24,927 nt of DNA from a virus. Made by a program: the position numbers and the translations under genes. Within the stretch, counting starts at the first letter, position 1. The number at the start of each line of letters is the position of its first letter. This document shows, piece after piece, positions 1,963 to 24,927 of this stretch. Location of the stretch: the IMG/VR virus record IMGVR_UViG_3300037108_000025, positions 1-24,927 of that record; one strand, written 5' to 3'. The notes beneath the pieces were generated by a model that was not told the origin of the DNA, did no database searches, and saw only the letters and a program-made list of their open reading frames with translations.

Positions 1963-4900
1963 TAGATGACCCTCCCAACGCTAAGGCTTGCGATCTTTCC
2001 GCAATCCTGTACTTCAAGCGCAAAGCCAATGAACTTGAAACCTCGGCCATAGATGGATGCATAAACTCCCTCGTCCACCTGAAAGCGAATCGACTGAATT
2101 CGCATAGCATTCGGCGGTCTCGTGACGAATTGAGCCGGCCCCGTGGTCAAGTTAACTGGGCCGCTCGTGCTGCCAAAGCCCGAAAAGTCCGGATAAGTCG
2201 TCAGCGTGATCGTGCTCTGGTCTTGGAACTCGCCAAGGAACTGAATCCTCGAAAGGTTGAATTGGCGTTGCAACCCAAGCGGATTGATGTCTGACGTCTG
2301 CATCGACTGCAAGATCGCATGCTCCACGGAACTCACCGTCTGGTCATAGCATTGCGCCGCTGTCTGCTCAGCAACGCTTCCGTCCGTAAAGATCAAAGTC
2401 GGAATGTTGTGAACGATGGCCGCTCCACACGGAGCTCCCAACGCGGACACGTCCCAGGTGTAGACGCTTCCAGCGGGGCAAGACTCTCCTCGGTGCTTGT
2501 AGTCCAACACGATGATCGTGCTCGCGTCTCCGCCGACATAGAACCACATCTGACGCTTTTGTTCCACGTGCAACGCGCACGTGATTGGGTTCACTGTATA
2601 CGGGTCCGTTCCCGCCGTGATGTCGAATGCGCCCGGAGCCGCTTCCGCAACTTGCAGCGAGGCATTGAGTAGCATAAGGCGCCCCGTCTGCGAGTCCTGG
2701 AAATAGCACCCATCGGCCCCGTTGATGAGGCTCTTCGGGTTCGAGCATCCCGCCTTGGTGCTCAAGGTCTGCACGCTGTAATTGCCCGATCCCATGCCGT
2801 CGGGGCCCGGCCCGGAAATGACTGCGATGGCGTCCCTTTTGAAGAATGCGAGATAATTCCAGTCTGTGTGGCAGATGCCAAGGATGTCGCCGGTCCCCTC
2901 GCCCCATTCGATGGACGTGATGTCATTCCACTGAATTCCGATGCCGTCGGCGAATTCCTGCGAAACCCAGATCCGGTTTCCATCAGCGCAAAATGCGCGG
3001 TCTTTCCAGATGTAGACCGCGCGAGCGTTCGGCGGGGGAGCATTTTCGAGTGCTCCCCCGGTGGTGTAGAGGAGTTCACCGGGCCCGGCCGCCGTGACAG
3101 CGGCGCTAATCGTGGGATAAGATGCGGTCGGACCGGCTAGAATCTGATCTATCCAGTCCACGGTCGAATCATTCACAATGACCGTGACCAACTGTAAATC
3201 AACTTGGCCTATGTATATTTCAATTTCCGCTGCTGTGCCCTCCATCAGGTGGCGGAGCGTCGGGACTCGAAGTCGCGAGATTGCCATGGACTCCCAAACA
3301 AGACTATTCGGAAGAATATAGGGAGATGAGCGCCAAATTGTTCCATCCGAACTTGTGAGGCGATATACGACAGCTACCGATGTGTCTCCCGTTGGCGCCA
3401 CATAGCCAGACGTCACTGGAGAAAAGAGCGGCTGGGTGACATCAATAGTGCCCACTCCAACCGTCTCCTGAAAATATGTCCCGATGTTTGACCCGCCAGG
3501 CCCAACGACATGAAACGTGATCCCGAACAGAAGTTCCGAAGTATTTGCATTTACGGATCGCTGAATTACGGCCTGAGTAGAGATACTACCCGCGTTCACT
3601 ACAGTATAAATTCCATCAGTTGGGTATCCATCCGGGATGGCAAACTGATCCATCGTATTCATTGGCAGTGTCGGGTTCATTGGACCGTCAGACGGGCGAT
3701 ATCCGAAAAAGGCTCCATTCGCATTGCGCTGATATACGTCTATCCCGGATAGCTTGGTCCACATGGATATATCGTATACGCCCGCAGTGTCGAATGTCCC
3801 AAAGCAACGGACATCATTCGTTATATACGCTTCCGGCATCGACGGGTACACCAGTGGCCCAGCTTCTCGCACTTTCTGGAATCCATTGCAGATCGTCGGG
3901 ATTGGCCCCGGCGCCAGCGAGTACCCTTGCCACGCGACGGGGTTCTGCCACAGTGGCGGCGCATTCGTCCGCTGATCCCAGATTTGAAGCTGCACAGTGG
4001 CGATATCGACGCACGCGTTCTGATTTGCGCTTTGCAATCCAACGTAGATATTGAGCGGAGCGCCTTCAGCCGTGTAGAGGACACCGCTAACCATAGGCTG
4101 GTGAAGGTCGCTGCAATAGCTCTGCACTTGCAAGTCTCGCGTCGCCGTCCCGCCGATGTGTGCCGCCTGCCCGTAGGCGAGCTGGGCTAGGATCGCCCCT
4201 GTGTCCCACTCGCGCACATGAAAGGAGGGCTGCAAGGCCGTCTTGTCCTCCCATTGGGTGATCAGGTAGTCGTTCCCGCTCTCCAGCGCGTGCGCCCCAG
4301 TGTTCGAGTAGTCGCGCAGGCGGATCCATCCTTGCGCAACGCTTGCCCCGAGTGCTATCCATTTCCGCGACCAGCTGGCGAGCGTGGGTGCGATGGTGTA
4401 CGCAAAGCATTGCGTCGCCAGATAATCAGGATTCCACGTGCGAAACGTTCCATTGGTTGTCACGTAGTACGGAATGGACGTCACCGCGATCTCTATCCCG
4501 GTTGTCGTTTCCTTGGCCGCCAAGGCCCCATTGTAGAACCAACCGTAGCGCGCGAACAGCGTCGCATCGAAGTCAGTCGGGCGCCCGTACTCGTCGGGAG
4601 CAACAGCCGGGAATGAATTCACATAGGTCGTCACTTCCAGGGTGGCGGCATCTACGCATTGGAGGATGATGGCCCAATCCCCGGTGTTGCTGGCACCAAC
4701 AAAGGCATAGTACCAAGTCCCGCTCGACGTCTGGAATCCTCCCGCCACGCTCGCGATGGTGCAGCATGCGGCCACGGCTTTGCCTTGCGTTCCGAGATAG
4801 GACACCGGACTCGATGCCGGACCTCCCGAAGGGGCAAGGTAGAAGTGCGACGAAATGGACTTGGCGTAATTGCTCGCACCACACGACTCTCCGCTGGCCG

Positions 4901-5756
4901 CACGAAATCCCGTAGCTGCCGATCCGGCTTGGCCCGGTGCCACGAATGCCGCCGAGGTGTCGTACTGGACGCCGCACGCCGCAATGGCGAGATTGTTTGC
5001 ATCCACCATACCCATGGTCACGCTCGTGAACGCGTTGTAGAGAGTTCCGGAATTGACAAGCTGAAACATCACATGAAAGGAGCCGGAGGATAGATTGGAG
5101 TGCGGAACGCTGTACGTGAAGATCTGATTTGACCAATCCACCCAGCAAAACCACAAATTATAGGCATCGAAGACAGGCGCATCAATGATCGCGAAGCTCT
5201 TGATCTGCAAGCTGACATTGCCAGAGATGGCTGCCACGGAGATAGGCGCGGTTTGTTGAATGATGGTCTCCCAGTCGCCAGTCGGAGAGAAGGCATCCGC
5301 GGCCGTATCCGGATTGACCTGCGCGATGACGAAGTGTCCCGCGTCTATAAGCCACGCGACATAATTGCCCGACTGCTTGGCCATGGGGGATTCTTGCTGA
5401 CCACTTCCAAGGGCAGGAAAGCGCGTATTGACTTGAGTTACGAATCTTGTCGCGTGACCCTGATACTGATTGGACGTGTTGCTCGTTCCGCGCACATAGG
5501 TCGCGTCGGTGACTGCGTCTCTCGTAATGACTTGCGTTCCATCGGGGGAAAGAATCGAATCCGGGGTGATAGGCCCGCTCTGATAATCATATCCCTGCCC
5601 GATGGCGGTAAAGCCGTCGCGCTTCGAGAACTCTCCGCCCTTCACTTGCTGGCAGTTCTTAGCGACGATCAGATCTCCGAGCTTCACGCTCTTGCGCCCG
5701 GTGTCCTGATCGGTGTCACCGTAGAACAGGGTAATGGGCTGCTTCGCAAGAGCCAT
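1962..5756 (-). CDS. Tail nozzle / stabilization protein (T7 gp12-like or P22 gp10-like), very large
   Basis: 1264 aa. The N-terminus (LFYGDTDQDTGRKSVKLGDLIVAKN, then FSKRDGFTAIG) matches the usual opening of podovirus tail nozzle proteins, where a line on parameters or coordinates leads into a KRxGF motif. Residues about 900-1060 carry RAVYIWKDRAFCADGNRIWVSQ, LAFFKRDAIAVISGPG and CYFQDSQTGRLMLLN, which resemble the beta-propeller blades of T7 gp12. The protein would form the distal tail tube below the adaptor ring. It is much longer than T7 gp12 (about 790 aa) or P22 gp10 (about 470 aa), so the middle (roughly 150-850) probably holds added beta-rich domains. Start and stop overlap both neighbours as TAATG, which indicates translational coupling. 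The family assignment comes from motif memory and gene order, not from a search. Confidence 0.75.
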   Translation of the reverse strand: MALAKQPITLFYGDTDQDTGRKSVKLGDLIVAKNCQQVKGGEFSKRDGFTAIGQGYDYQSGPITPDSILSPDGTQVITRDAVTDATYVRGTSNTSNQYQGHATRFVTQVNTRFPALGSGQQESPMAKQSGNYVAWLIDAGHFVIAQVNPDTAADAFSPTGDWETIIQQTAPISVAAISGNVSLQIKSFAIIDAPVFDAYNLWFCWVDWSNQIFTYSVPHSNLSSGSFHVMFQLVNSGTLYNAFTSVTMGMVDANNLAIAACGVQYDTSAAFVAPGQAGSAATGFRAASGESCGASNYAKSISSHFYLAPSGGPASSPVSYLGTQGKAVAACCTIASVAGGFQTSSGTWYYAFVGASNTGDWAIILQCVDAATLEVTTYVNSFPAVAPDEYGRPTDFDATLFARYGWFYNGALAAKETTTGIEIAVTSIPYYVTTNGTFRTWNPDYLATQCFAYTIAPTLASWSRKWIALGASVAQGWIRLRDYSNTGAHALESGNDYLITQWEDKTALQPSFHVREWDTGAILAQLAYGQAAHIGGTATRDLQVQSYCSDLHQPMVSGVLYTAEGAPLNIYVGLQSANQNACVDIATVQLQIWDQRTNAPPLWQNPVAWQGYSLAPGPIPTICNGFQKVREAGPLVYPSMPEAYITNDVRCFGTFDTAGVYDISMWTKLSGIDVYQRNANGAFFGYRPSDGPMNPTLPMNTMDQFAIPDGYPTDGIYTVVNAGSISTQAVIQRSVNANTSELLFGITFHVVGPGGSNIGTYFQETVGVGTIDVTQPLFSPVTSGYVAPTGDTSVAVVYRLTSSDGTIWRSSPYILPNSLVWESMAISRLRVPTLRHLMEGTAAEIEIYIGQVDLQLVTVIVNDSTVDWIDQILAGPTASYPTISAAVTAAGPGELLYTTGGALENAPPPNARAVYIWKDRAFCADGNRIWVSQEFADGIGIQWNDITSIEWGEGTGDILGICHTDWNYLAFFKRDAIAVISGPGPDGMGSGNYSVQTLSTKAGCSNPKSLINGADGCYFQDSQTGRLMLLNASLQVAEAAPGAFDITAGTDPYTVNPITCALHVEQKRQMWFYVGGDASTIIVLDYKHRGESCPAGSVYTWDVSALGAPCGAAIVHNIPTLIFTDGSVAEQTAAQCYDQTVSSVEHAILQSMQTSDINPLGLQRQFNLSRIQFLGEFQDQSTITLTTYPDFSGFGSTSGPVNLTTGPAQFVTRPPNAMRIQSIRFQVDEGVYASIYGRGFKFIGFALEVQDCGKIASLSVGRVI

Positions 5757-7440: not shown

Positions 7441-8787
7441 CTAGGTGGTGGGCAGGTTCGAGATGGCGAGGAACTTGCCGGGGCCCGGGACGACCATGGC
7501 GCCACGGAAGAACAGCCTCTGCTGGAATGCCGTCGACGTGGGCATGCGCAGGTATTCGTTGCCGTCGGCGTTGTCGGTGTTGACCAACTCGCCGTTGTGC
7601 TTGAGCATGGGGCCGAACTCCGCCGAGTTGAACGGGCCGCCCCAGCAGATGCCTTGGCTGATGTACTTGGACGGGGTGACGCGAACCTTGCCCTTGCCTC
7701 CGAGCACTTCGACGCCATCGAATCCCACGCTGTACGGGCCGATGTTGAGGCTCACCAGCTTGACCCGTTCCTTGTCGCGGATCAAGGTGGCGTAGTCATA
7801 GACAGACACCATCCAGGTGTCGATCTCGGTGTCGTACTGCTCGGCCAGCATGTTGCCCTCGATGAGGGCGTCGGCGATGGAGAGCGACCCGGCGGAGGCG
7901 TCCATGGTGATCCCGGAGAGCTGCCAGATGTTTCGGCGGTCGAGACCCATGAAGGACGTCTCACCTGAGGACACGCCGGACGGATCCACCCAGCCCCGCA
8001 TACCGATGGGGCACTGTGCGGTGGGGCTCGCGGTGTTCTGTCGGAAGCCCTGAATGAAGACCGTGTCGGCGTTGCGGACCGCGTCCGTGTCGTAAGGACT
8101 GGTGGCACTGTCGGCGGAGCGAGTTTCGAGCACGACCTTGCCCGTCTGCGGAACGGTGCCGGACACGGTCCAGGCGTTGCCCCACCCGGACTGATCGCCA
8201 GTTCCGTCGGCTCCGCGCAGAGTCCCAGTGGCCTCGGTGGCACCGAACACGACCCGCATGCCGATGCGGAAGCGGCTCACCTCGGACAGCGGCACCGTGA
8301 AGTAGTTTTGCCCGGAGGCGATTACGGAGATCGTTGAAATTCGTCCCCAACCACGCTCGGCCGCCATGATGGACAGCAGGTGGCGAACATAGGCGATCTT
8401 CGCCTTGCGCTCGCGGGTGACGATGTCGACAACTTCGCCAGGACCGTCGCCGACTGCGGCCATCATCGAATCGCGATCCCACATCGCAATGGCTTCGATC
8501 TTGGCTGCGTTGGTCGACCAGCGGCCTCGGAGAGCGGCGGCCCCGAGGTCGGTAGACGTGGCGATATCGTTCGCCAGGGTGTACTGCGCGTTCGCGCTGA
8601 CACCCGTGTCGTATTCAACGCGGGTGATGAAGGCTCGGCCCAAACCATCGTTGCTCGATTGAGCCTCGAAAGCGGCCAGAAGAGGGTCGATTGCCTGGGT
8701 CCAGATGTCGACGATGTCGCGATTCTGGTGCTCCATGACCTGGGAGAAAACTCCCCCGAGGTCTCCAACTGTGAAAGTAGCGCCCAT
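7441..8787 (-). CDS. Major capsid protein
   Basis: 448 aa. It follows the scaffold gene and precedes the head-completion genes, the standard place of the coat protein. The sequence fits an HK97-fold coat: an N-terminal helix (FSQVMEHQNRDIVDIWTQAIDP), a long-helix region (RKAKIAYVRHLLSIMAAERGWGRI, about 128-151), a beta-rich middle, and a C-terminal stretch of DYATLIRDKERVKLV, then GVEVLGGKGKVRVTPSKYISQG, then RLFFRGAMVVPGP. The start is ATG with AGGTGA upstream. That ribosome site can pair with a copy of its complement 69 bases earlier in the leader. The call rests on gene order and composition; a structure prediction would confirm it. Confidence 0.8.
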   Translation of the reverse strand: MGATFTVGDLGGVFSQVMEHQNRDIVDIWTQAIDPLLAAFEAQSSNDGLGRAFITRVEYDTGVSANAQYTLANDIATSTDLGAAALRGRWSTNAAKIEAIAMWDRDSMMAAVGDGPGEVVDIVTRERKAKIAYVRHLLSIMAAERGWGRISTISVIASGQNYFTVPLSEVSRFRIGMRVVFGATEATGTLRGADGTGDQSGWGNAWTVSGTVPQTGKVVLETRSADSATSPYDTDAVRNADTVFIQGFRQNTASPTAQCPIGMRGWVDPSGVSSGETSFMGLDRRNIWQLSGITMDASAGSLSIADALIEGNMLAEQYDTEIDTWMVSVYDYATLIRDKERVKLVSLNIGPYSVGFDGVEVLGGKGKVRVTPSKYISQGICWGGPFNSAEFGPMLKHNGELVNTDNADGNEYLRMPTSTAFQQRLFFRGAMVVPGPGKFLAISNLPTT

Positions 8788-8790
8788 GAT

Positions 8791-8877
8791 GTCACCTGAT
8801 GCAAGGGCAGCGCTCGCGCGCTGGCCCGGTGGTTTGTCCGAGCATCACTTGTGCTGCGGACCTCTTATTCAGGTGAC
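8791..8877 (-). promoter_or_regulatory. Long-range stem that could hide the capsid gene ribosome site
   Basis: In the minus-strand mRNA, GTCACCTGA (8877-8869) is perfectly complementary to TCAGGTGAC (8799-8791). The second copy contains the AGGTGA Shine-Dalgarno four bases before the ATG of the major capsid gene. The 69-base loop holds its own hairpin, CAGCGC/GCGCTG with loop GCGA in the mRNA (8808-8823), and a shorter one at 8908-8923 lies upstream. Pairing would block initiation until it was opened. Confidence 0.4.
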
Positions 8878-8961: not shown

Positions 8962-10119
8962 CTATTTCGCGGACCTGGCTTGAAATTGAGCTTCTACCGT
9001 TGCCCGGAGTCGCTTCTCCTTGTCGCGCAGGCTTTCGCGCTTGGCAGGTTCGATCTTGATGGCGTCACCGGCATCGGAGGTCACGGAGGGCGTGATGGTG
9101 CGAACCGCTGCCGCGGGTGGTGTTGGCTTCTTGTCGTCCTTGGGGTTGATCAGCTCTTCGAGCTTTTCAATGCGCTCCTTCTGGGCCTTGAGGGTTGCGC
9201 GGATGGAGCCTTCCGCCTTGTCGAGTAGCTCCTTGGCCGTGAGAATCTGGCCGGGCTTGTCCCTCAAGTGCTGCTGGTAGAAAGCGTCGAGCTGGCCTTG
9301 CGTAACCTTGTCCGACTTCAGGGCGGGATAGTCGCCGGCTTTGTATTCGATACGGACAGCACCATAGAACTCTTCCTTGGCCACAAGATTGTCGGCCTCC
9401 TGACGCTGCCTCGCGATTTCCTCGGCGGCCTTGCGTTCGTCCTCGGCGGCCTTCAAGCGTTCGGCGATCTTCTTTTCGACGTCGGCTTCCGTGAGGGTTG
9501 GCGGGGCGGTTCGCTTCGACATCTCATCGAGCAGGTCGACCACGAAGCCGGATTTTTCTAGTTCATCTGGCGTGTAGCCGGCTGCCTCAAGGATGGCGAG
9601 CTTGCTTCCCTTGGTCCGCGCCGCCTCCAACTTTCTCGCCAGCTCGATCTCTTTCGCGTGCGCTGTCTCGGCGGCCTTTGACTTGGCATCGGCGGCTAGC
9701 TCACGCTCCCGGAGTTTTCGGCGCTGAGCAGCCTCCGAACTCGCGGCGGAAAGTCGTGCTAGCCGCGCGGCGATCTCGTCTTGCTCTGATGTTTTCTTCT
9801 CGGTCTCGACGGGCTTGGCAAGTTCGACAGGCTTCGGCTCGACCTTTGCCAGTGCATCCCCAAGTGCGGTGGACGGTGCAGGGAGCGGAGCCGGTGCAGT
9901 GGGCGGAGTGGGTTTGGGAGATTGCACGGTTGTCGCGGGAGTCGCGCGGTTGACCTTGTGCTTTTCATTGTAGCGCTGCTCGACGAATGCCTTGAGATCG
10001 ATCTTTCCTGGCGCTTCTGGATGCGCCGGCAGGGCCGTGCCTGGGACGGTAGCGGCCTCAGTTGTCGGGGCGGAAACGACGGGAGTGGGAACGGCTGCGG
10101 CGGTTACTTGGTCTGACAT
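8962..10119 (-). CDS. Scaffolding protein
   Basis: 385 aa. The N-terminal 100 residues are Pro/Ala/Thr-rich and probably disordered. Residues about 105-190 and 215-320 are highly charged, Ala-rich predicted helix or coiled coil (KTSEQDEIAARLARLSAASSEAAQRRKLRERELAAD and similar). The C-terminus is a short basic helix (RESLRDKEKRLRATVEAQFQARSAK), the kind of tail with which scaffolds bind coat protein. It sits between portal and coat genes, which is diagnostic for scaffolds. It would guide procapsid assembly and then leave. A GAGGAA ribosome site precedes the ATG, and the gene overlaps the 56-aa gene upstream by 16 bp. Confidence 0.8.
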   Translation of the reverse strand: MSDQVTAAAVPTPVVSAPTTEAATVPGTALPAHPEAPGKIDLKAFVEQRYNEKHKVNRATPATTVQSPKPTPPTAPAPLPAPSTALGDALAKVEPKPVELAKPVETEKKTSEQDEIAARLARLSAASSEAAQRRKLRERELAADAKSKAAETAHAKEIELARKLEAARTKGSKLAILEAAGYTPDELEKSGFVVDLLDEMSKRTAPPTLTEADVEKKIAERLKAAEDERKAAEEIARQRQEADNLVAKEEFYGAVRIEYKAGDYPALKSDKVTQGQLDAFYQQHLRDKPGQILTAKELLDKAEGSIRATLKAQKERIEKLEELINPKDDKKPTPPAAAVRTITPSVTSDAGDAIKIEPAKRESLRDKEKRLRATVEAQFQARSAK

Positions 10120-15789: not shown

Positions 15790-16175
15790 GCCCCGCGCGC
15801 TCTGCCTGCACGTTTCGTGTCAATTGCTCAATACGTGGGCGCGCGACGCGCGCATCCAAAAGGCGAAGGCCACCCGTCCCTCCGGATTCCCGGAATCACC
15901 AAAGCGAATATGACGTCCTTGAGCGTGGTGGGGTCTGGCGTCTGCGTTTGTTACCCGAGGTCCAGTGGCCGATCCTATGTCAGGTGCTGACCTGCCCTAT
16001 GGGCTTGCGTCTTCTCGCGTGCCCATGCTCCTCCCAGCGCGCTCCTTGGAGTGATTTGGGCGTACCATCGGCACGGTCTTTTCCCGTGGTTGGTGCCCGT
16101 GAGTTCATGGCCGATGATGGTACGCGATCTCTCCTCCGTGTTCAACATTCAGCATCGAAGTCGGGCAGGCTCGTC
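15790..16175. other. Divergent control region, non-coding, with several palindromes
   Basis: No credible gene lies on either strand. Palindromes seen: GCGCGCG-A-CGCGCGC (15839-15853); GATTCC-C-GGAATC (15885-15897); CAGGT-GCTG-ACCTG (15981-15994); and a perfect 10-bp inverted pair GCGTACCATC (16060-16069) / GATGGTACGC (16116-16125), with a CACGG/CCGTG hairpin (16072-16088) between its arms. The region separates oppositely transcribed arms, so operators, a replication origin or a packaging site could all be here. Confidence 0.6.
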
Positions 16176-16204
16176 TTGTCGATCAAATGCTTTTGATGTA
16201 CACT
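16176..16204 (+). promoter_or_regulatory. Rightward promoter with palindromic operator in its spacer
   Basis: TTGTCG (16176-16181), a 17-base spacer and TACACT (16199-16204) give a plausible sigma70-type promoter. The spacer is almost filled by the palindrome ATCAAA-TGCT-TTTGAT (16182-16197). A protein bound there would exclude RNA polymerase. The start codon of the next gene is only nine bases after the -10 and there is no ribosome site, so the transcript may be leaderless. Confidence 0.5.
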
Positions 16205-16212
16205 CCTCGATC

Positions 16213-16416
16213 ATGAGCAATCCAACCAAGGGCAAAAGGCGCGCACCGGGGGCCGGGCGCAAGGCTAAACCTGAAGGGCAGAAGGCCAGCCGGCACATCG
16301 GGGCAGGAGTATCCGACAAGGAATGGCCGCTAGTAGAGATGGTAACCGAGCAGCGTGGGGGCAACCGCTCGGCCATCATCAGAGCGGCTTTCGGACTCCC
16401 CCCTGCGATTTCCTAG
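16213..16416 (+). CDS. Small ribbon-helix-helix-like DNA-binding protein
   Basis: 67 aa. A basic N-terminus (KGKRRAPGAGRKAKPEGQKA) is followed by a short strand (SRHIGAGVS), a helix (DKEWPLVEMVTEQ), a Gly turn and a second helix (RSAIIRAAFGL). This is the strand-helix-helix order of Arc/CopG-type dimeric repressors, including the typical Ser-x-x-Ile-Arg-x-A of the last helix. As first gene of the rightward arm, with a palindrome in its own promoter, it is a good candidate for an autorepressor or early regulator. The ATG at 16213 has no Shine-Dalgarno. An upstream extension in the same frame has no family support. Confidence 0.6.
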   Translation: MSNPTKGKRRAPGAGRKAKPEGQKASRHIGAGVSDKEWPLVEMVTEQRGGNRSAIIRAAFGLPPAIS

Positions 16417-16452: not shown

Positions 16453-16481
16453 TTGCAACGTAATTGGATACGATCTACTCT
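16453..16481 (+). promoter_or_regulatory. Second rightward promoter of the same design
   Basis: TTGCAA (16453-16458), 17 bases, then TACTCT (16476-16481), with the ATG six bases later. The stretch from the -10 to the start (TACTCTCC, then GATCATG) repeats that of the first rightward promoter (TACACTCCTC, then GATCATG). Both lack a ribosome-binding site. Confidence 0.4.
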
Positions 16482-16487
16482 CCGATC

Positions 16488-16721
16488 ATGGAAACGCAGA
16501 CGACACCAACCACCACCAACGAAGCCAGGCGCGCTCGCGAAATCTACGCAGACGCCACGGCCTACCCTCGCTCGAAGCTCCCCGGCTATGGAAAGATCGT
16601 CCTAGCCTGGGTTGACGGCCGCTACGTGGCCACCTACGAGGGCGCGCCATATTGGAGCACGGTCGAGATACACGACGGGTTCGCGGTCATGCAGATGGCA
16701 TCCCTGGAGGTGCGCTCGTGA
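16488..16721 (+). CDS. Small hypothetical protein
   Basis: 77 aa. The N-terminus is Thr-rich (METQTTPTTTNEARRAREIYADATAYPRSK). It is followed by a compact beta-rich part, YGKIVLAWVDGRYVATYEGAPYWSTVEIHDGFAVMQM, that looks like a small folded domain. No family recognised. I prefer ATG 16488 over a TTG at 16464, because the latter lies within the predicted promoter. The stop overlaps the next gene as GTGA. Confidence 0.55.
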   Translation: METQTTPTTTNEARRAREIYADATAYPRSKLPGYGKIVLAWVDGRYVATYEGAPYWSTVEIHDGFAVMQMASLEVRS

Positions 16722-20611: not shown

Positions 20612-21661
20612 ATGCGACCACATCCACTGTCAGAGATATTCCCTCCAATGGAGGGAGATGAATTCGACGCGCTAGTCGAAGATATTCGGCGAAACGGGCT
20701 GCGCCAGCCGCTGGTCATGTACCAGGGAAAAATCCTGGACGGGCGCAACCGCTGGCGCGCATGCGAGAAGGCTGGCGTCAAGGCGACCACCACGGACTAC
20801 CGTGGTAACGATCCGCTCGGCTACGTGCTTTCGTTGAACCTGAATCGACGGCATCTAACTCCGACCCAGCGAGCGATAGTAGCCGAGAACATCGTCACGA
20901 CCACACACGGAGGCTTTCGCCATGGTGAGGACAGCAGGACCAAGGGATCACGTGATCCCTTGATAGCCGAGGTCAGCCGCGAGAAAGCCGCGAGAATCAT
21001 GGATACAAGCCCAGGAACCATGAAGCGCGTGCGAAAGGTTCTAGATCACGGGACGGAACCACTCAAGGCGGCGATCAAGGCTGACAAGCTCGACGCAGGG
21101 ACCGCCGCAAAACTTGTCGACGCCTCAGCCAAGACGCAGAAGGCAGCGGCCGAAGGCGGTAAGGAAATCGCGCGCGAGATCGTCAAGAAGATCGAAGCGC
21201 GCGAGGAAGCCAAGGAAGAAGCGAGATCGGGAGATCCACCTGTCAAGACGCTTGGCCTTCCGATCCCACCGGAAATCCTCGTGCGCATCGAGAAGGAGCA
21301 AGGTCTTCTCGACAAGATGTCCCGGATGCTCTCGGAACTGAAGCGCACGTATACCGAGTACGAGCAATGCACCGGCGTTGCCGGAAAACTCGGGCCTGGG
21401 AAACACCATGCGAGCGCCTTACGTTCGGCACTTGATGCCCTGAATACCCTGCGCGACCAGCGGCCCGCCTGCGTCTGCCCACATTGCAAACTGCTTCCCG
21501 ATTTGATCAAGACCTGCAACGTCTGCCGGCGCAGCGGTTACATTGGGGCGAGCGCGCTCAAGCAGATCGAAGCATGTCTACTTGTCGAAGGAGACGAAGC
21601 CGGGGTGTGGGTCGATGGAAAGTGGAGGTCATTGGCCGAATTGCGCGGAGACGACTTCTGA
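20612..21661 (+). CDS. ParB-like DNA-binding protein with C-terminal zinc finger
   Basis: 349 aa. The ParB N-terminal domain is clear: LVEDIRRNGLRQPLVMY (21-37), ILDGRNRWRACEKAG (41-55, equivalent to the GERRxRA nucleotide-binding box) and LNLNRRHLTPTQRA (75-88). A helix-turn-helix-like part follows (AEVSREKAARIMDTSPGTMKRVRKVL, 119-144). The middle (160-245) is charged helix. The C-terminus has C287, C289, C292 and C302-NV-C305, a zinc site not found in classical ParB. No ParA is visible here, so transcriptional or replication control is as likely as partition. A 22-bp palindrome lies within the coding sequence. It ends in a TGATG overlap with the helicase gene. Confidence 0.75.
   Translation: MRPHPLSEIFPPMEGDEFDALVEDIRRNGLRQPLVMYQGKILDGRNRWRACEKAGVKATTTDYRGNDPLGYVLSLNLNRRHLTPTQRAIVAENIVTTTHGGFRHGEDSRTKGSRDPLIAEVSREKAARIMDTSPGTMKRVRKVLDHGTEPLKAAIKADKLDAGTAAKLVDASAKTQKAAAEGGKEIAREIVKKIEAREEAKEEARSGDPPVKTLGLPIPPEILVRIEKEQGLLDKMSRMLSELKRTYTEYEQCTGVAGKLGPGKHHASALRSALDALNTLRDQRPACVCPHCKLLPDLIKTCNVCRRSGYIGASALKQIEACLLVEGDEAGVWVDGKWRSLAELRGDDF
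20941..20962. repeat. 22-bp perfect palindrome inside the parB-like gene
   Basis: The half-site CAAGGGATCAC is followed immediately by its exact reverse complement. The centre TCACGTGA equals the central eight bases of the chromosomal parS site recognised by ParB. It encodes residues 110-117 of the ParB-like protein, in a variable linker between the ParB box and the helix-turn-helix. Confidence 0.8.
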
Positions 21662-23433
21662 TGGCTGCGCAGATGGACATGTTTGCGACGGTCGCGCATC
21701 ATCCGGCGGTGGCTCCTCCGGCTCCGCCCGGAACACCTCCGCCAGTGGGCCACAGTTTGCGCCCATATCAGGAGGATGCCGTTGCGGGTGCACAACGAGA
21801 ACTTGCCGACAACCGCTCAACGCTGATCGTGATGCCGACAGGATCGGGCAAGACCAAGGTCATGACGGAGATTGCAAGAAGGCGCAGCCGAGATCGCATC
21901 CTCGTCCTCGCTCATCGCGACGAGCTTTTGCAGCAGGCCCGCTCTCGGTTCGGCCATGACTGCGGTGAGACGATTGGACTCGACCAGGCTGACTTTTTTG
22001 GCGGTGACGAGCGAATCATTGTTGGAAGCATTCAGACCGTTTCTCAGCCGCATCGCCTGGAGAGGTTCCCCAAAGAGCGCTTCGACCTCGTGATGATCGA
22101 CGAGGCGCATCACAGCCCCGCGACTAGTTACCAGCGAGTGATCGACTACTTCGGGTCGGCCAAGATTCTCGGCGTGACGGCGACCCCAGACCGTGCCGAC
22201 GAAAAAGCCATGGGCCAGATTTTCGACTCGGTTGCCTTTCTCTATGAGATCGAAGATGCGATCCGAGACGGCTACTTGTGCGATGTCACTTGTTCGCGAA
22301 TCACCATTGCGGGGCTCGATCTGTCCACTGTGAAGACCGTGGCTGGCGACCTGAATCAGGGACAACTGGACGCGATCATGAAGGTCGAGGAGAACCTGCT
22401 CGCTGTCGCCGATGCGACCATGCGCGAAGCCGGAGACCGTAAGACGGTCGTCTTCACGACCTCGGTTGACAACGCCAAGCGACTTGCCGAGATCATGAAT
22501 CGCCATCGCCGCGACTGTGCGCGATCGGTGGACGGGAAGACCGAAATCTTTGAGCGCCGCGGGCTGCTTGCCGATTTCGACGATGGCAAGTTCCAATTCC
22601 TGACGAACGTCGGGATCGCCACGGAAGGATGGGACTGTCCCTCCGTGGCTTGCGTGGCGATGGCGAGACCGACGAAATCGCGCGCTCTCTACGCCCAATG
22701 CGTGGGGCGTGGATTGCGTCCCCACCCATCGAAGCCGGACGGGTGCTTGATTCTCGATTTTGTCGGCAACAGCGGGAAGCACAAACTAGCGAGCGCGCTT
22801 GATGTTCTAGGCGGCAAGTACACCGAAGACGAAGAGGAGATCGCGCAAGAGCTGGTGGCCAAGCATCCGGGCATGAAGGCTCGCGATGCGCTCGACCAGG
22901 CGCATGCGCTCGCCGAGCGGCAAAAGCGAGAGGCGGAAGAGGCGGCAAAACGGACCGCCATCAAGGCGCGGGCCATCTACAGCAAGTCGACCATCGACCC
23001 CTTCGGCGTCTTCCACCTAGACGTTCATCGCGAAATGGAGATCGCCGACAGATTCGGAGGGCGCCCGCCGAGCGAGAAGCAGCTTGCATGCCTGGAGAAT
23101 ATGAAGATCCCAGTACCGGCGGGATGCACAGCACAGCTCGCCTCGAAGTTAATCGGGACGAGCATCAAGCGGCGCGAGTTGAATCTAGCGACGTTCGGCC
23201 AATTGAAGATGTTGCAGAAGTACGGCGTGAACGAGGTCAACGTCAGCTTCAAGGGAGCGAGCACAATCATCGACGCTATCGCCAAGAACAACTGGAAGCC
23301 GCTGCCATTCTCGCGACTCGATGCAATTCTCGGGCAAGAGGTGAAGCCCGCGCCAGTTGCCGCGGCGCCGACGCCAAGGCCGCCAAGCCAGACGCTACCC
23401 ACGGATGCGGATTACGATGACGTCGATTTCTAG
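21661..23433 (+). CDS. SF2 DEAD/DEAH-box helicase
   Basis: 590 aa. Motifs: LRPYQEDAV (33-41), Walker A MPTGSGKT (58-65), Walker B DEAH (147-150), TATPDR (173-178), FQFLTNVGIATEGWDCPSV (311-329) and QCVGRGLRP (346-354), with the arginine finger R350 or R353. This is the RecG/UvrB/ComFA-like type I-restriction-style helicase common in phage replication modules. The first 30 residues are Pro-rich and disordered; a conserved-looking C-terminal region (490-560, PSEKQLACLENMKIPVPAG) may bind DNA or primase. ATG 21661 is preferred because it overlaps the ParB-like stop (TGATG). It probably remodels replication or recombination intermediates. Confidence 0.88.
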   Translation: MAAQMDMFATVAHHPAVAPPAPPGTPPPVGHSLRPYQEDAVAGAQRELADNRSTLIVMPTGSGKTKVMTEIARRRSRDRILVLAHRDELLQQARSRFGHDCGETIGLDQADFFGGDERIIVGSIQTVSQPHRLERFPKERFDLVMIDEAHHSPATSYQRVIDYFGSAKILGVTATPDRADEKAMGQIFDSVAFLYEIEDAIRDGYLCDVTCSRITIAGLDLSTVKTVAGDLNQGQLDAIMKVEENLLAVADATMREAGDRKTVVFTTSVDNAKRLAEIMNRHRRDCARSVDGKTEIFERRGLLADFDDGKFQFLTNVGIATEGWDCPSVACVAMARPTKSRALYAQCVGRGLRPHPSKPDGCLILDFVGNSGKHKLASALDVLGGKYTEDEEEIAQELVAKHPGMKARDALDQAHALAERQKREAEEAAKRTAIKARAIYSKSTIDPFGVFHLDVHREMEIADRFGGRPPSEKQLACLENMKIPVPAGCTAQLASKLIGTSIKRRELNLATFGQLKMLQKYGVNEVNVSFKGASTIIDAIAKNNWKPLPFSRLDAILGQEVKPAPVAAAPTPRPPSQTLPTDADYDDVDF

Positions 23434-23710
23434 AAAAGATCGCGTTCTCACGGCCTGGGCCGACGCCTACGATCGAATCGGCGCCGAGGTGGATCTCTTC
23501 TGTGCCAAGCATGGGGCCCCTCCGAATTGCCTGGACATGATCCGCGAATACACTCCAACACGTGCCCAGGAGATCGAAGACGCCGAGAAGGCCGCAGAGG
23601 CGCGCTCGGTCGCCTGGGTTGATGGTGGACCCGGTGGCGTTCAGGTCTTGATCGACCGATGGGTCGAACTTTGGATTGCGGCGCTGCGAGAGGTGGCGCT
23701 TGCCCGCTGA
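23417..23710 (+). CDS. Small hypothetical protein between helicase and primase
   Basis: 97 aa, largely helical: RKDRVLTAWADAYDRIGAEVDLFCAKHGAPPNCLDMI, then RAQEIEDAEKAAEARSV, then VQVLIDRWVELWIAALREVALAR. No family recognised. The start is uncertain between ATG 23417 and ATG 23405, both inside the helicase end. It overlaps the primase start, so all three genes are probably translated together. Confidence 0.55.
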   Translation: MTSISRKDRVLTAWADAYDRIGAEVDLFCAKHGAPPNCLDMIREYTPTRAQEIEDAEKAAEARSVAWVDGGPGGVQVLIDRWVELWIAALREVALAR

Positions 23711-24590
23711 CTTCCGCGCTGCCATGGCCGCCGCCGGCCTGGTGGTTCCGAAAACACTCTTGGCAGACGGGAAGATCCACCGCTGCGATGTGGATGGAAA
23801 GCCCGGGCGCCGTGGTGGCTCCTACCAGCTCTTCCCTGACCTGTTAGGTGGTGGACTGCAAAACTGGTCGACCGGGCCTTGGCAGAAGTGGCAAGCGAAA
23901 CGCGACCAGCTCACGCCAGACGAACGCGCGAAGATGGCGGCCATGATAGAGCAGGGAAGGCGGGAGCGCGAAGCCACGCGCGAGATGGAGGCCAAAGCGG
24001 CGGCGAGGAAGGCGGAGCGCATGTGGGGGATGGCCGTGGAGCGTTCGCATCCGTACCTCGACCGCAAGGGCATTTGTCAGGCTGGGACGCGGGTGCTCGG
24101 AAAGCTCCTACTTGTGCCCGTGCGCGACGCTAAGGGGGGGCTCGTCAGCCTCCAGTGCATCGCCGAGGATGGTACCAAGCGCTTCCTCCGGGGCGGGGTG
24201 ATTGATGGATGCTTCACGTGGTTACGATGTGGGCAGGAGACTGGCCCACGCATCTACATTTGCGAGGGGCTCGCTACGGGCACCACGATTCACGCAGCGA
24301 CGAAGTGCAGGCCGGTTGCCGTGGCGTTTTCTTGCGGAAATATCCTTCGCGTCGCGCGCTTTCTGCGAGGGCAGTTTCCGGCCGGGCGATTCACAATTTG
24401 CGGCGACAACGATCACAAGACCGAAGGCAATCCAGGAGTGCGGTTTGCGACGAAGGCGGCACTTGAAATTCATGCTCGTCTCGCAGTCCCACGGGGGATG
24501 ACCGGAACAGACTTCAATGACCTGATGGAGGAGAGAGGTATTGAGTGGGTTTCTGAACAATTGAAAAATGCAGTGATTCCGCACGAATAG
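23700..24590 (+). CDS. TOPRIM-domain DNA primase
   Basis: 296 aa. The N-terminus (DFRAAMAAAGLVVP, then LADGKIHRCDVDGKPGRRGGSYQLF) resembles the N-terminal part of phage primases. The TOPRIM fold is visible at RIYICEGLATG (E189), then FTICGDND (D236, D238). DFNDL (271-275) near the end is also usual in this group. It would make RNA primers for replication. No replicative helicase domain is fused, unlike T7 gp4. I chose TTG 23700 because GAGAGG lies six bases upstream and the family N-terminus needs these residues; ATG 23724 is the fallback. Confidence 0.75.
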   Translation: MPADFRAAMAAAGLVVPKTLLADGKIHRCDVDGKPGRRGGSYQLFPDLLGGGLQNWSTGPWQKWQAKRDQLTPDERAKMAAMIEQGRREREATREMEAKAAARKAERMWGMAVERSHPYLDRKGICQAGTRVLGKLLLVPVRDAKGGLVSLQCIAEDGTKRFLRGGVIDGCFTWLRCGQETGPRIYICEGLATGTTIHAATKCRPVAVAFSCGNILRVARFLRGQFPAGRFTICGDNDHKTEGNPGVRFATKAALEIHARLAVPRGMTGTDFNDLMEERGIEWVSEQLKNAVIPHE

Positions 24591-24609
24591 AAGAAAGTCC
24601 ATAATGCTA

Positions 24610-24637
24610 TTGACAGAATCGAAAATATCACAAGAAT
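24610..24637 (+). promoter_or_regulatory. Promoter candidate after the primase
   Basis: Perfect -35 TTGACA (24610-24615), a 16-base spacer, then AAGAAT (24632-24637, four of six). It lies in AT-rich DNA just beyond the primase stop. The predicted transcript would begin near 24644, at the hairpin that follows. Confidence 0.45.
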
Positions 24638-24642
24638 GGGCC

Positions 24643-24686
24643 CTGCCCCGCCGAGGGGTAGTAGTAGTACGGATCCGGATCCGTAC
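24643..24686. repeat. Hairpin, (GTA)4 run and 20-bp perfect palindrome
   Basis: CTGCCCC/GGGGTAG (24643-24661) forms a 7-bp stem with one G-U pair and a 5-base loop. (GTA)4 follows at 24658-24669. Then the half-site GTACGGATCC and its exact reverse complement make a perfect 20-bp palindrome at 24667-24686, with two abutting GGATCC. There is no T-run on either strand, so this looks like a protein-binding or structural site rather than a terminator. The remaining non-coding DNA to 24828 has only a GCTCGG/CCGAGC hairpin near 24770-24805. Confidence 0.65.
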
Positions 24687-24828
24687 CCACCGTCCACCTG
24701 GATCCCGCCTCTTTGAGTAGCAATCCTGCCACTAACGCTTGTGGCCGCGAGGTGGCCAAGGCGCGCGGCGGCCAGCTCGGACTCCGCACCTCCAAGCCGA
24801 GCGAGGCGTGCAAGGGGAAAGTAGCCGC

Positions 24829-24856
24829 TTGACACTTTCTGAAAGATGTGGACAAT
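24829..24856 (+). promoter_or_regulatory. Strong promoter for the gene leaving the window
   Basis: Perfect -35 TTGACA (24829-24834), a 16-base spacer and GACAAT (24851-24856, four of six). The spacer contains CTTTC-T-GAAAG, a short palindrome that could be an operator. Transcription would start about 30 bases before the ATG at 24892. Confidence 0.55.
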
Positions 24857-24891
24857 AGGGTCCGTACCAACAACCACGAAGAAAGGGCGCC

Positions 24892-24927
24892 ATGGAAATC
24901 TACGCACTTCAGGGAGATTTGAAAATT
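24892..24927 (+). CDS. Start of a further gene, cut by the window end
   Basis: Twelve codons, MEIYALQGDLKI, open at the window edge. The ATG has AAAGGG five bases upstream and a promoter about 36 bases before it. Too little is present to name a family. Confidence 0.5.
   Translation, partial: MEIYALQGDLKI

Follow-up and report, generated by a model that had tools for sequence, protein, structure and literature searches.

The replication origins of most uncultured phages are, to our knowledge, unknown. That of phage Sfi21 is reportedly situated after the primase, as Foley et al. are said to have found in 1998. The P1 oriR combines AGATCCA heptamers with GATC sites, RepA iterons and an adjoining AT-rich stretch, and the canonical parS is a palindrome with a CACGTG core and a sequence near TGTTTCACGTGAAACA. 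The Sfi21 origin is described as a 302-bp non-coding segment inside the replication module (PMC6356513), and a table row for the Streptococcus thermophilus phage TP-778 shows that the primase is followed by a gap at 9297-9541 (PMC3952083). For the plasmid pRN1, a stem-loop located immediately 3' of orf904, the replication gene, is described as required, and the same source mentions a similar origin layout proposed for the Bordetella phage BIP-1 (PMC4234260).

Here we describe a locus at the right-hand end of a viral sequence. The window, that is, the whole stretch analysed, is a complete IMG/VR record of 24,927 bases that is classed as linear and is probably a fragment. On its plus strand it carries a cassette made up of a ParB-like gene, an SF2 helicase gene, a small gene (23357-23710) and a Toprim primase gene, and the primase, with 304 aa, is much shorter than the 802-position phrog_2249 profile. 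A preliminary description made from the letters alone had reported that a 20-bp perfect palindrome follows these replication genes, with (GTA)4 and a hairpin ahead of it, and that it lies in a non-coding gap between two TTGACA promoters. All of these elements were recovered: the palindrome lies past the primase, and the TTGACA boxes begin at 24610 and 24829 (Table 1).

Table 1. Positions of the features discussed, in the window unless another contig is named
Feature	Position	Strand	Basis or remark
Structured RNA candidate, ~157 nt, 40 pairs	15906-16060	+	
Structured RNA candidate, second member	L034 5818-5974	+	
Structured RNA candidate, third member	L053 1750-1585	-	
ParB-like gene	20612-21661	+	phrog_21315 and phrog_4715; ParB_N below its cutoff
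22-bp perfect palindrome CAAGGGATCACGTGATCCCTTG	20941-20962	none	inside the ParB-like gene; parS-like candidate
SF2 (ResIII/DEAD) helicase gene	21484-23433	+	phrog_16; alignments with relatives start near 21709
Toprim primase gene, 304 aa	23676-24590	+	phrog_2249, E 8e-64; Toprim_3
50-bp GC minimum of the window (30%)	24586-24635	none	candidate unwinding element and promoter
Promoter-like block P1, TTGACA-16-AAGAAT	24610-24637	+	promoter scan; CTATTKACA and AGAAT also in the L004 lineage
Short GC hairpin, TGCCCC-GCCGA-GGGGTA	24644-24660	+	folding
(GTA)4	24658-24669	+	last unit is the first three bases of the palindrome
20-bp perfect palindrome GTACGGATCCGGATCCGTAC	24667-24686	none	two head-to-head GGATCC boxes; proposed dimer-binding site
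Third GGATCC box	24700-24705	none	29 bp from the first box
Promoter-like block P2, TTGACA-17-ACAATA	24829-24857	+	17-bp spacing by direct reading; scan gave TTGACA-16-GACAAT, 24829-24856
DnaA-box-like TTGTCCACA	24847-24855	-	the window's only match to TTRTCCACA
Half-site-like GGGTCCGTAC	24858-24867	+	directly 3' of the P2 -10; 9/10 match to a palindrome half
Start of next gene (MEIYALQGDLKI...), first 12 codons	24892-24927	+	truncated by the record end
16-bp perfect palindrome TAAGATCCGGATCTTA	L004 6524-6539		directly after the primase

The gap spans 301 bp (24591-24891) and contains no plus-strand ORF of at least 50 aa. On the minus strand, ORFs as long as 145 aa run across it: for the one at 24470-24907, relatives were found only in or near the part opposite the primase gene, and a search for relatives of the one at 24628-24873 returned none. 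On these grounds the gap is taken as non-coding. Like Sfi21-type origins, it is AT-rich relative to the genome: the lowest-GC 100 bp of the window (35% GC, against 30% over the lowest 50 bp) lie at 24538-24637 and include the end of the primase gene, while the window overall has ~60% GC. The palindrome has a CCGG core and no CACGTG, and no further copy of it occurs in the window at up to three mismatches. Together with the third GGATCC box it forms the window's densest RGATCC cluster, with six boxes when strands are counted, each GGATCC scoring twice as its own reverse complement. Unlike the P1 oriR with its heptamers, the gap has no AGATCC boxes, and a search of 24520-24900 from a 10-nt seed gave no repeats of at least 13 nt, only the short RGATCC boxes and the palindrome. 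The single DnaA-like box is weak evidence for an origin. GGGTA stands at 24656-24660 and TACCC at 24684-24688; as the preliminary description correctly stated, removal of three GTA units joins them into a longer perfect palindrome, of 24 bp, although the gain is only two base pairs and lends weak support to repeat expansion.

Database searches with this region returned little. The tRNA and Rfam searches gave no matches, a DNA similarity search of phages with a 1.3-kb stretch gave none, and a 368-base query, with an E cutoff of 10, gave short, weak matches only. Within the gap, a scrap on the plus strand at 24743-24790 (GREVAKARGGQLGLR) resembles the C-terminal part of plasmid serine recombinases; over 45 nt it shares 84% identity with a gene on an Aeromonas plasmid. 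Among the 10 best of 57 records in a plasmid DNA search, five matches fall in recombinase genes (window 24743-24808), and a Pfam search with the 15-29 residues that resemble the resolvase C-terminus gave no match. The scrap is possibly a decayed recombinase remnant.

In 25 kb the length of the palindrome alone is only mildly surprising: of 300 Markov-2 simulations of the window, 15 contained a perfect palindrome of 20 bp or longer, as did 5 of 20,000 Markov-1 simulations of the 301-bp gap. We judge it to be real because of its place and its conservation in a second lineage. The latter is represented by three contigs (L004, L005 and L006) that are 99.6-100% identical over 8.4-9.9 kb, and its primase is 69% identical to that of the window. 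The palindromes of the two lineages, GTACGGATCCGGATCCGTAC and TAAGATCCGGATCTTA, are identical in their central 10 bp (core GATCCGGATC), which are flanked on either side by three positions that have changed symmetrically. Counted from the primase stop codon, the window and L004 share 39 of 75 ungapped positions, a number reached by none of 20,000 shuffles, and the conserved block holds CTATTGACA or CTATTTACA, respectively, followed by AGAAT at equal spacing. In simulated (Markov) gaps of the L004 lineage, the core occurred anywhere in 28 of 20,000 and inside a perfect palindrome of at least 16 bp in none of 20,000. This lineage also has four AGATCCG boxes (both strands counted); it has no (GTA)4, and its TACCC and GGGTA belong to a separate 12-bp palindrome farther downstream. 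The palindrome is non-random, and is probably a protein-binding element of a known kind in a new phage lineage.

The site is conserved in two independent lineages only. Comparison with related phages, as the preliminary description had advised, found it in the lineage of L004-L006 but not in the close relative L003 (primase 71% identical), where there is neither gap nor palindrome and other reading frames stand directly after the primase. Among 15 more distant genome-contig relatives, no GATCC palindrome was seen within up to 600 bp past the primase-bearing frame (only ~140 bp in L030), and when the viral collection was searched for the promoter pattern combined with the core, only the three known contigs came up. 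Several candidates were rejected. An identical 18-mer in viral contigs L012 and L013 was put down to chance, as it seems to lie within a coding stretch (no gene called); AGATCC repeats at L003 8046-8325 proved to be codons of a collagen-like tandem repeat rather than boxes; and a structural alignment of the two gaps misaligned the palindromes and was discarded. The collagen-like gene itself (L003 8018-8389, at the contig end) is built of tandem nine-base units (GNQGNQG...VGSTG).

The setting of the site is also similar in L034. Its lowest-GC 50 bp (30%) occupy reverse-strand positions 4883-4932, immediately past the primase stop at 4886, and in both the window and L034 the record's lowest-GC 50 bp sit between the primase stop and the palindrome; the lowest-GC 100 bp of L034 (39%) also take in the end of its primase gene, as in the window. 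The densest RGATCC cluster of L034 (four boxes) is again at the palindrome. This clustering is weak evidence on its own, since 9 of 300 simulated records hold at least five RGATCC boxes and 30 of 300 at least four. When the ORFs of the window and of L034, a 14.5-kb fragment, were compared by blastp at E up to 1e-3, matches were confined to ParB-helicase-orf-primase, save one weak 32-aa match near the structured RNA described below. Because the two match only across the cassette, the palindrome site appears tied to the replication cassette. The following gene looks different, the 12 codons in the window being unlike the 291-aa DUF3310 gene of the L034 lineage, although 12 codons are thin evidence. 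GC skew shows no reversal at the site in L034 or L033, and the window ends ~240 bp past it. Unidirectional or recombination-driven replication would give no skew switch.

What the sequence itself shows is the palindrome with its symmetric conservation, an AT minimum, clustered boxes, promoter-like blocks and a location at the cassette end; protein binding, duplex opening, replication start and transcription control at this site are inferred. We tentatively favour a short origin/early-control region at the end of the ParB-helicase-primase cassette, with the palindrome as its central protein-binding site. On this view, a dimeric phage protein that binds DNA would occupy the two head-to-head GGATCC boxes, with the flanking single boxes assisting; the adjoining AT-rich stretch, which is also the place of P1, would be where the duplex opens; and binding would set initiation and control rightward early transcription. 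The AT-rich gap and the conserved promoter-like block suit a plain operator equally. In that case a phage repressor dimer would sit on the palindrome, ~24-43 bp into the P1 transcript, and replication would start elsewhere. As an operator should, the palindrome lies at the P1 block, a predicted promoter conserved upstream of it in both lineages; the half-site directly after the P2 -10 would extend the control to P2 and suits a regulator of both promoters, and both phages encode a small, putatively ribbon-helix-helix-like protein. However, operators usually travel with the genes they control, and here the site follows the primase in both phages, yet the next genes (12 codons versus DUF3310) look unlike. 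The ribbon-helix-helix label, moreover, finds no support in Pfam or, for the window protein, in PHROGs, and an operator leaves the AT minimum of the record at the site unexplained. It is because of the missing skew reversal and long repeats, the promoter-like block, the P2 half-site and a next gene of 12 codons that we hold the origin/early-control region only tentatively and regard a plain operator as the main, if somewhat doubtful, alternative. Of the three functions suggested in the preliminary description, origin and operator are backed by position, AT minimum, promoter-like block and the second phage, whereas nothing supports a terminus signal: the terminator scan gave no intrinsic-terminator-like site (GC hairpin plus T run) at 24640-24690, and in the relative the skew does not change at the site.

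It is unlikely that the palindrome instead serves the ParB-like protein of the cassette as a secondary site, with the palindrome in that protein's own gene as the main one. Such a relation would account for the inverted GGATC half-sites that both long palindromes of the window carry; among the 60 loci surveyed below, the other palindromes of at least 20 bp outside the ParB-like regions either lie shortly before a ParB-like frame (L078 and L084) or extend a copy of an in-gene site (L055). But the spacing between the GGATC halves differs (4 bp versus 2 bp), the two palindromes of the window do not match each other at up to three mismatches over 14 or 16 bp, and the L034 lineage has the intergenic palindrome and none of at least 12 bp in its ParB-like gene. 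A common binder for the window's two palindromes is possible but unsupported. Improbable, too, is the bolder proposal that a ParB-like clamp protein with no known ParA loads at the in-gene and origin palindromes and starts or organises phage replication; if true, it would mean a replication-linked use of the ParB fold and an in-gene loading site that evolves with the protein. A role as a hairpin in the P1 leader RNA, affecting stability, processing or attenuation, seems very unlikely. The predicted RNA does contain an 8-bp stem, which the symmetric changes keep, but the folded stretches at the hairpin and palindrome do not surpass shuffled sequences (z -0.65 for RNA, -1.20 for DNA), the L004 stretch folds somewhat better than its shuffles (z -1.88) yet its lowest-energy fold does not contain the palindrome hairpin, the scan gave no terminator-like site there, and the four centre bases, the would-be loop, are palindromic in both phages. 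That the palindrome arose by chance and has no function, as palindromes of this length in the simulated windows might suggest, is hardly credible, given that both its place and its core are conserved in the second lineage. 

The in-gene palindrome CAAGGGATCACGTGATCCCTTG is the window's only other one of at least 16 bp. We surveyed 101 loci with a ParB profile; the 80 top-ranking of 573 confirmed helicase relatives supplied many of these loci. The survey gave 62 hits; L025 and the second L081 hit had been dropped beforehand, leaving 60 genes, some of them closely related. Nine of the 60 (window, L007, L059, L061, L064, L072, L077, L087 and L090) have a perfect palindrome of at least 18 bp (18-26 bp) inside the open frame, compared with an average of 0.34 of 60 genes, and a maximum of four, in 200 synonymous-codon shuffles. 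With 150 bp before and 50 bp after each gene included, the rate is nine in 69 kb versus seven in 533 kb outside, and when one mismatch in 20 bp is allowed, 13 of the 60 regions carry such sites (16 in 72 kb), compared with 32 in the 531 kb that lie outside. The majority of the 60 genes lack any such palindrome. In five of the nine (window, L007, L064, L077 and L087) it lies in the variable part that separates the N-terminal domain from the helix-turn-helix, where L003 also has a shorter one (14 bp); the palindromes in this stretch and the residues they encode are largely different from one another. Those of L059, L061, L072 and L090 lie elsewhere in the ParB-like alignment, and L078 and L084 have palindromes 174-180 bp before the ParB-like open frame. 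The L003 and L007 palindromes had at first been explained simply by the codons for an ANLP motif, a view abandoned after the 60-gene survey. As candidate self sites resembling parS, the in-gene palindromes would provide a list of predicted protein-site pairs for orphan phage ParB proteins. In the 52-kb record of L055 (G007), the palindrome GTCCCCAATTGGGGAC occurs in 12 copies (10 exact, two with one mismatch), one of them within the ParB-like profile hit, and looks like a genome-wide site family.

A 2025 survey of the ParB fold links many orphan ParB homologues to mobile elements, and its main text contains neither 'palindrom' nor 'inverted repeat' (PMC12704722). Among the literature matches listed, no title or opening of an abstract refers to such sites in phage ParB-like genes, while a paper on Pseudomonas aeruginosa ParB contains the phrase 'intragenic parS' (PMC5521831). 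A related idea is found in the anti-BstA element, described as a DNA self-immunity element that overlaps the start of a prophage gene (PMC8585504), although the protein concerned is unrelated to ParB.

Elsewhere in the window we identified a candidate for a new structured RNA (15906-16060), for which Rfam gave no match. In a somewhat longer alignment of the fold shared by the window and L034, eight of 53 pairs have changed on both sides and none is broken. A covariance model built from these two sequences retrieved a third member, in L053, with 99.6 bits (E 5.5e-25) from 71 sources totalling 795 kb, the next hit scoring 15.7 bits; there the RNA lies between the ParB-like and helicase genes. 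Whole records matched the model in two of 11 cases, those of L033 and L053. In the three-sequence alignment, which was fitted to the model and is thereby favoured by it, 98.2% of cells pair and the covariation score was reached by none of 500 shuffles, while the number of pair types was reached by 122 of 500. As a single sequence the RNA does not fold better than shuffles (z -0.87). Both this RNA and the palindromes in ParB-like genes are side findings, yet they may outweigh the main finding in importance.

Two small proteins, encoded at 16213-16416 (plus strand, 67 aa) of the window and at 8344-8829 (minus strand, C-terminal part) of L034, are weakly alike (30% over 43 aa). By our own reading they are putative ribbon-helix-helix-like regulators; Pfam gave no match for either at E up to 5, nor did PHROGs at E up to 1 for the window protein. 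Two adjacent small genes of the window have similar leaders (16185-16216 and 16460-16491), which end in CTCCTCGATCATG and CTCTCCGATCATG. Promoter-like boxes, recognised by eye, stand very near the ATG in both, and the messages could be leaderless.

The position of the AT minimum was also surveyed in other helicase-primase loci. A primase frame was recognised in 15 of 83 loci, 14 of them usable (L109 ends at the stop), and we asked whether the lowest-GC 100 bp begin between 60 bp before and 200 bp after the primase stop. This was so in eight of the 14 loci, versus 0.31 expected, and not in the other six; without the two phages that had prompted the test, the count was six of 12 versus ~0.28 expected. 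The loci include seven related streptococcal-type primases and form five groups at 60% primase identity, with matches in four, in one of them as a tie only (L107). In Streptococcus phage Javan235 (L121), an annotated gap of 286 bp after the primase contains an exact 28-nt repeat. An AT minimum at the primase end of helicase-primase cassettes may thus serve as a testable pointer to origins.

Compared with known systems, the locus shares single traits with several. Its cassette includes a ParB-like gene, and the in-gene palindrome at 20941-20962 has the CACGTG core of parS; on the other hand, the flanks of that palindrome differ from the canonical ones, the palindrome at 24667-24686 has no such core, and no ParA gene was identified. 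The RGATCC cluster with its GATC sites beside an AT-rich stretch recalls the P1 oriR, the difference being that the window has no long iterons and has two boxes fused into a palindrome. With pRN1 it shares an inverted repeat in a short stretch just past the primase gene, but there the element is a 100-nt stem-loop and the primase is of the archaeal type with an SF3 helicase, whereas the window combines a Toprim primase with a 20-bp palindrome. In relation to Sfi21-type origins, the primase of the window is much shorter, and the long direct or inverted repeats (iterons) of these origins were not found in its gap: direct repeats of 13-37 nt occur in the corresponding gaps of L099, L111, L120 and L121, and the window instead has short RGATCC boxes and the palindrome. 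The helicase, however, is of the same family, and its best-ranked phage matches are streptococcal; like the window, a streptococcal phage with that helicase has a non-coding, AT-rich gap right after the primase. The window has the non-coding segment directly after the primase that marks the Sfi21 type, a layout it shares with L121.
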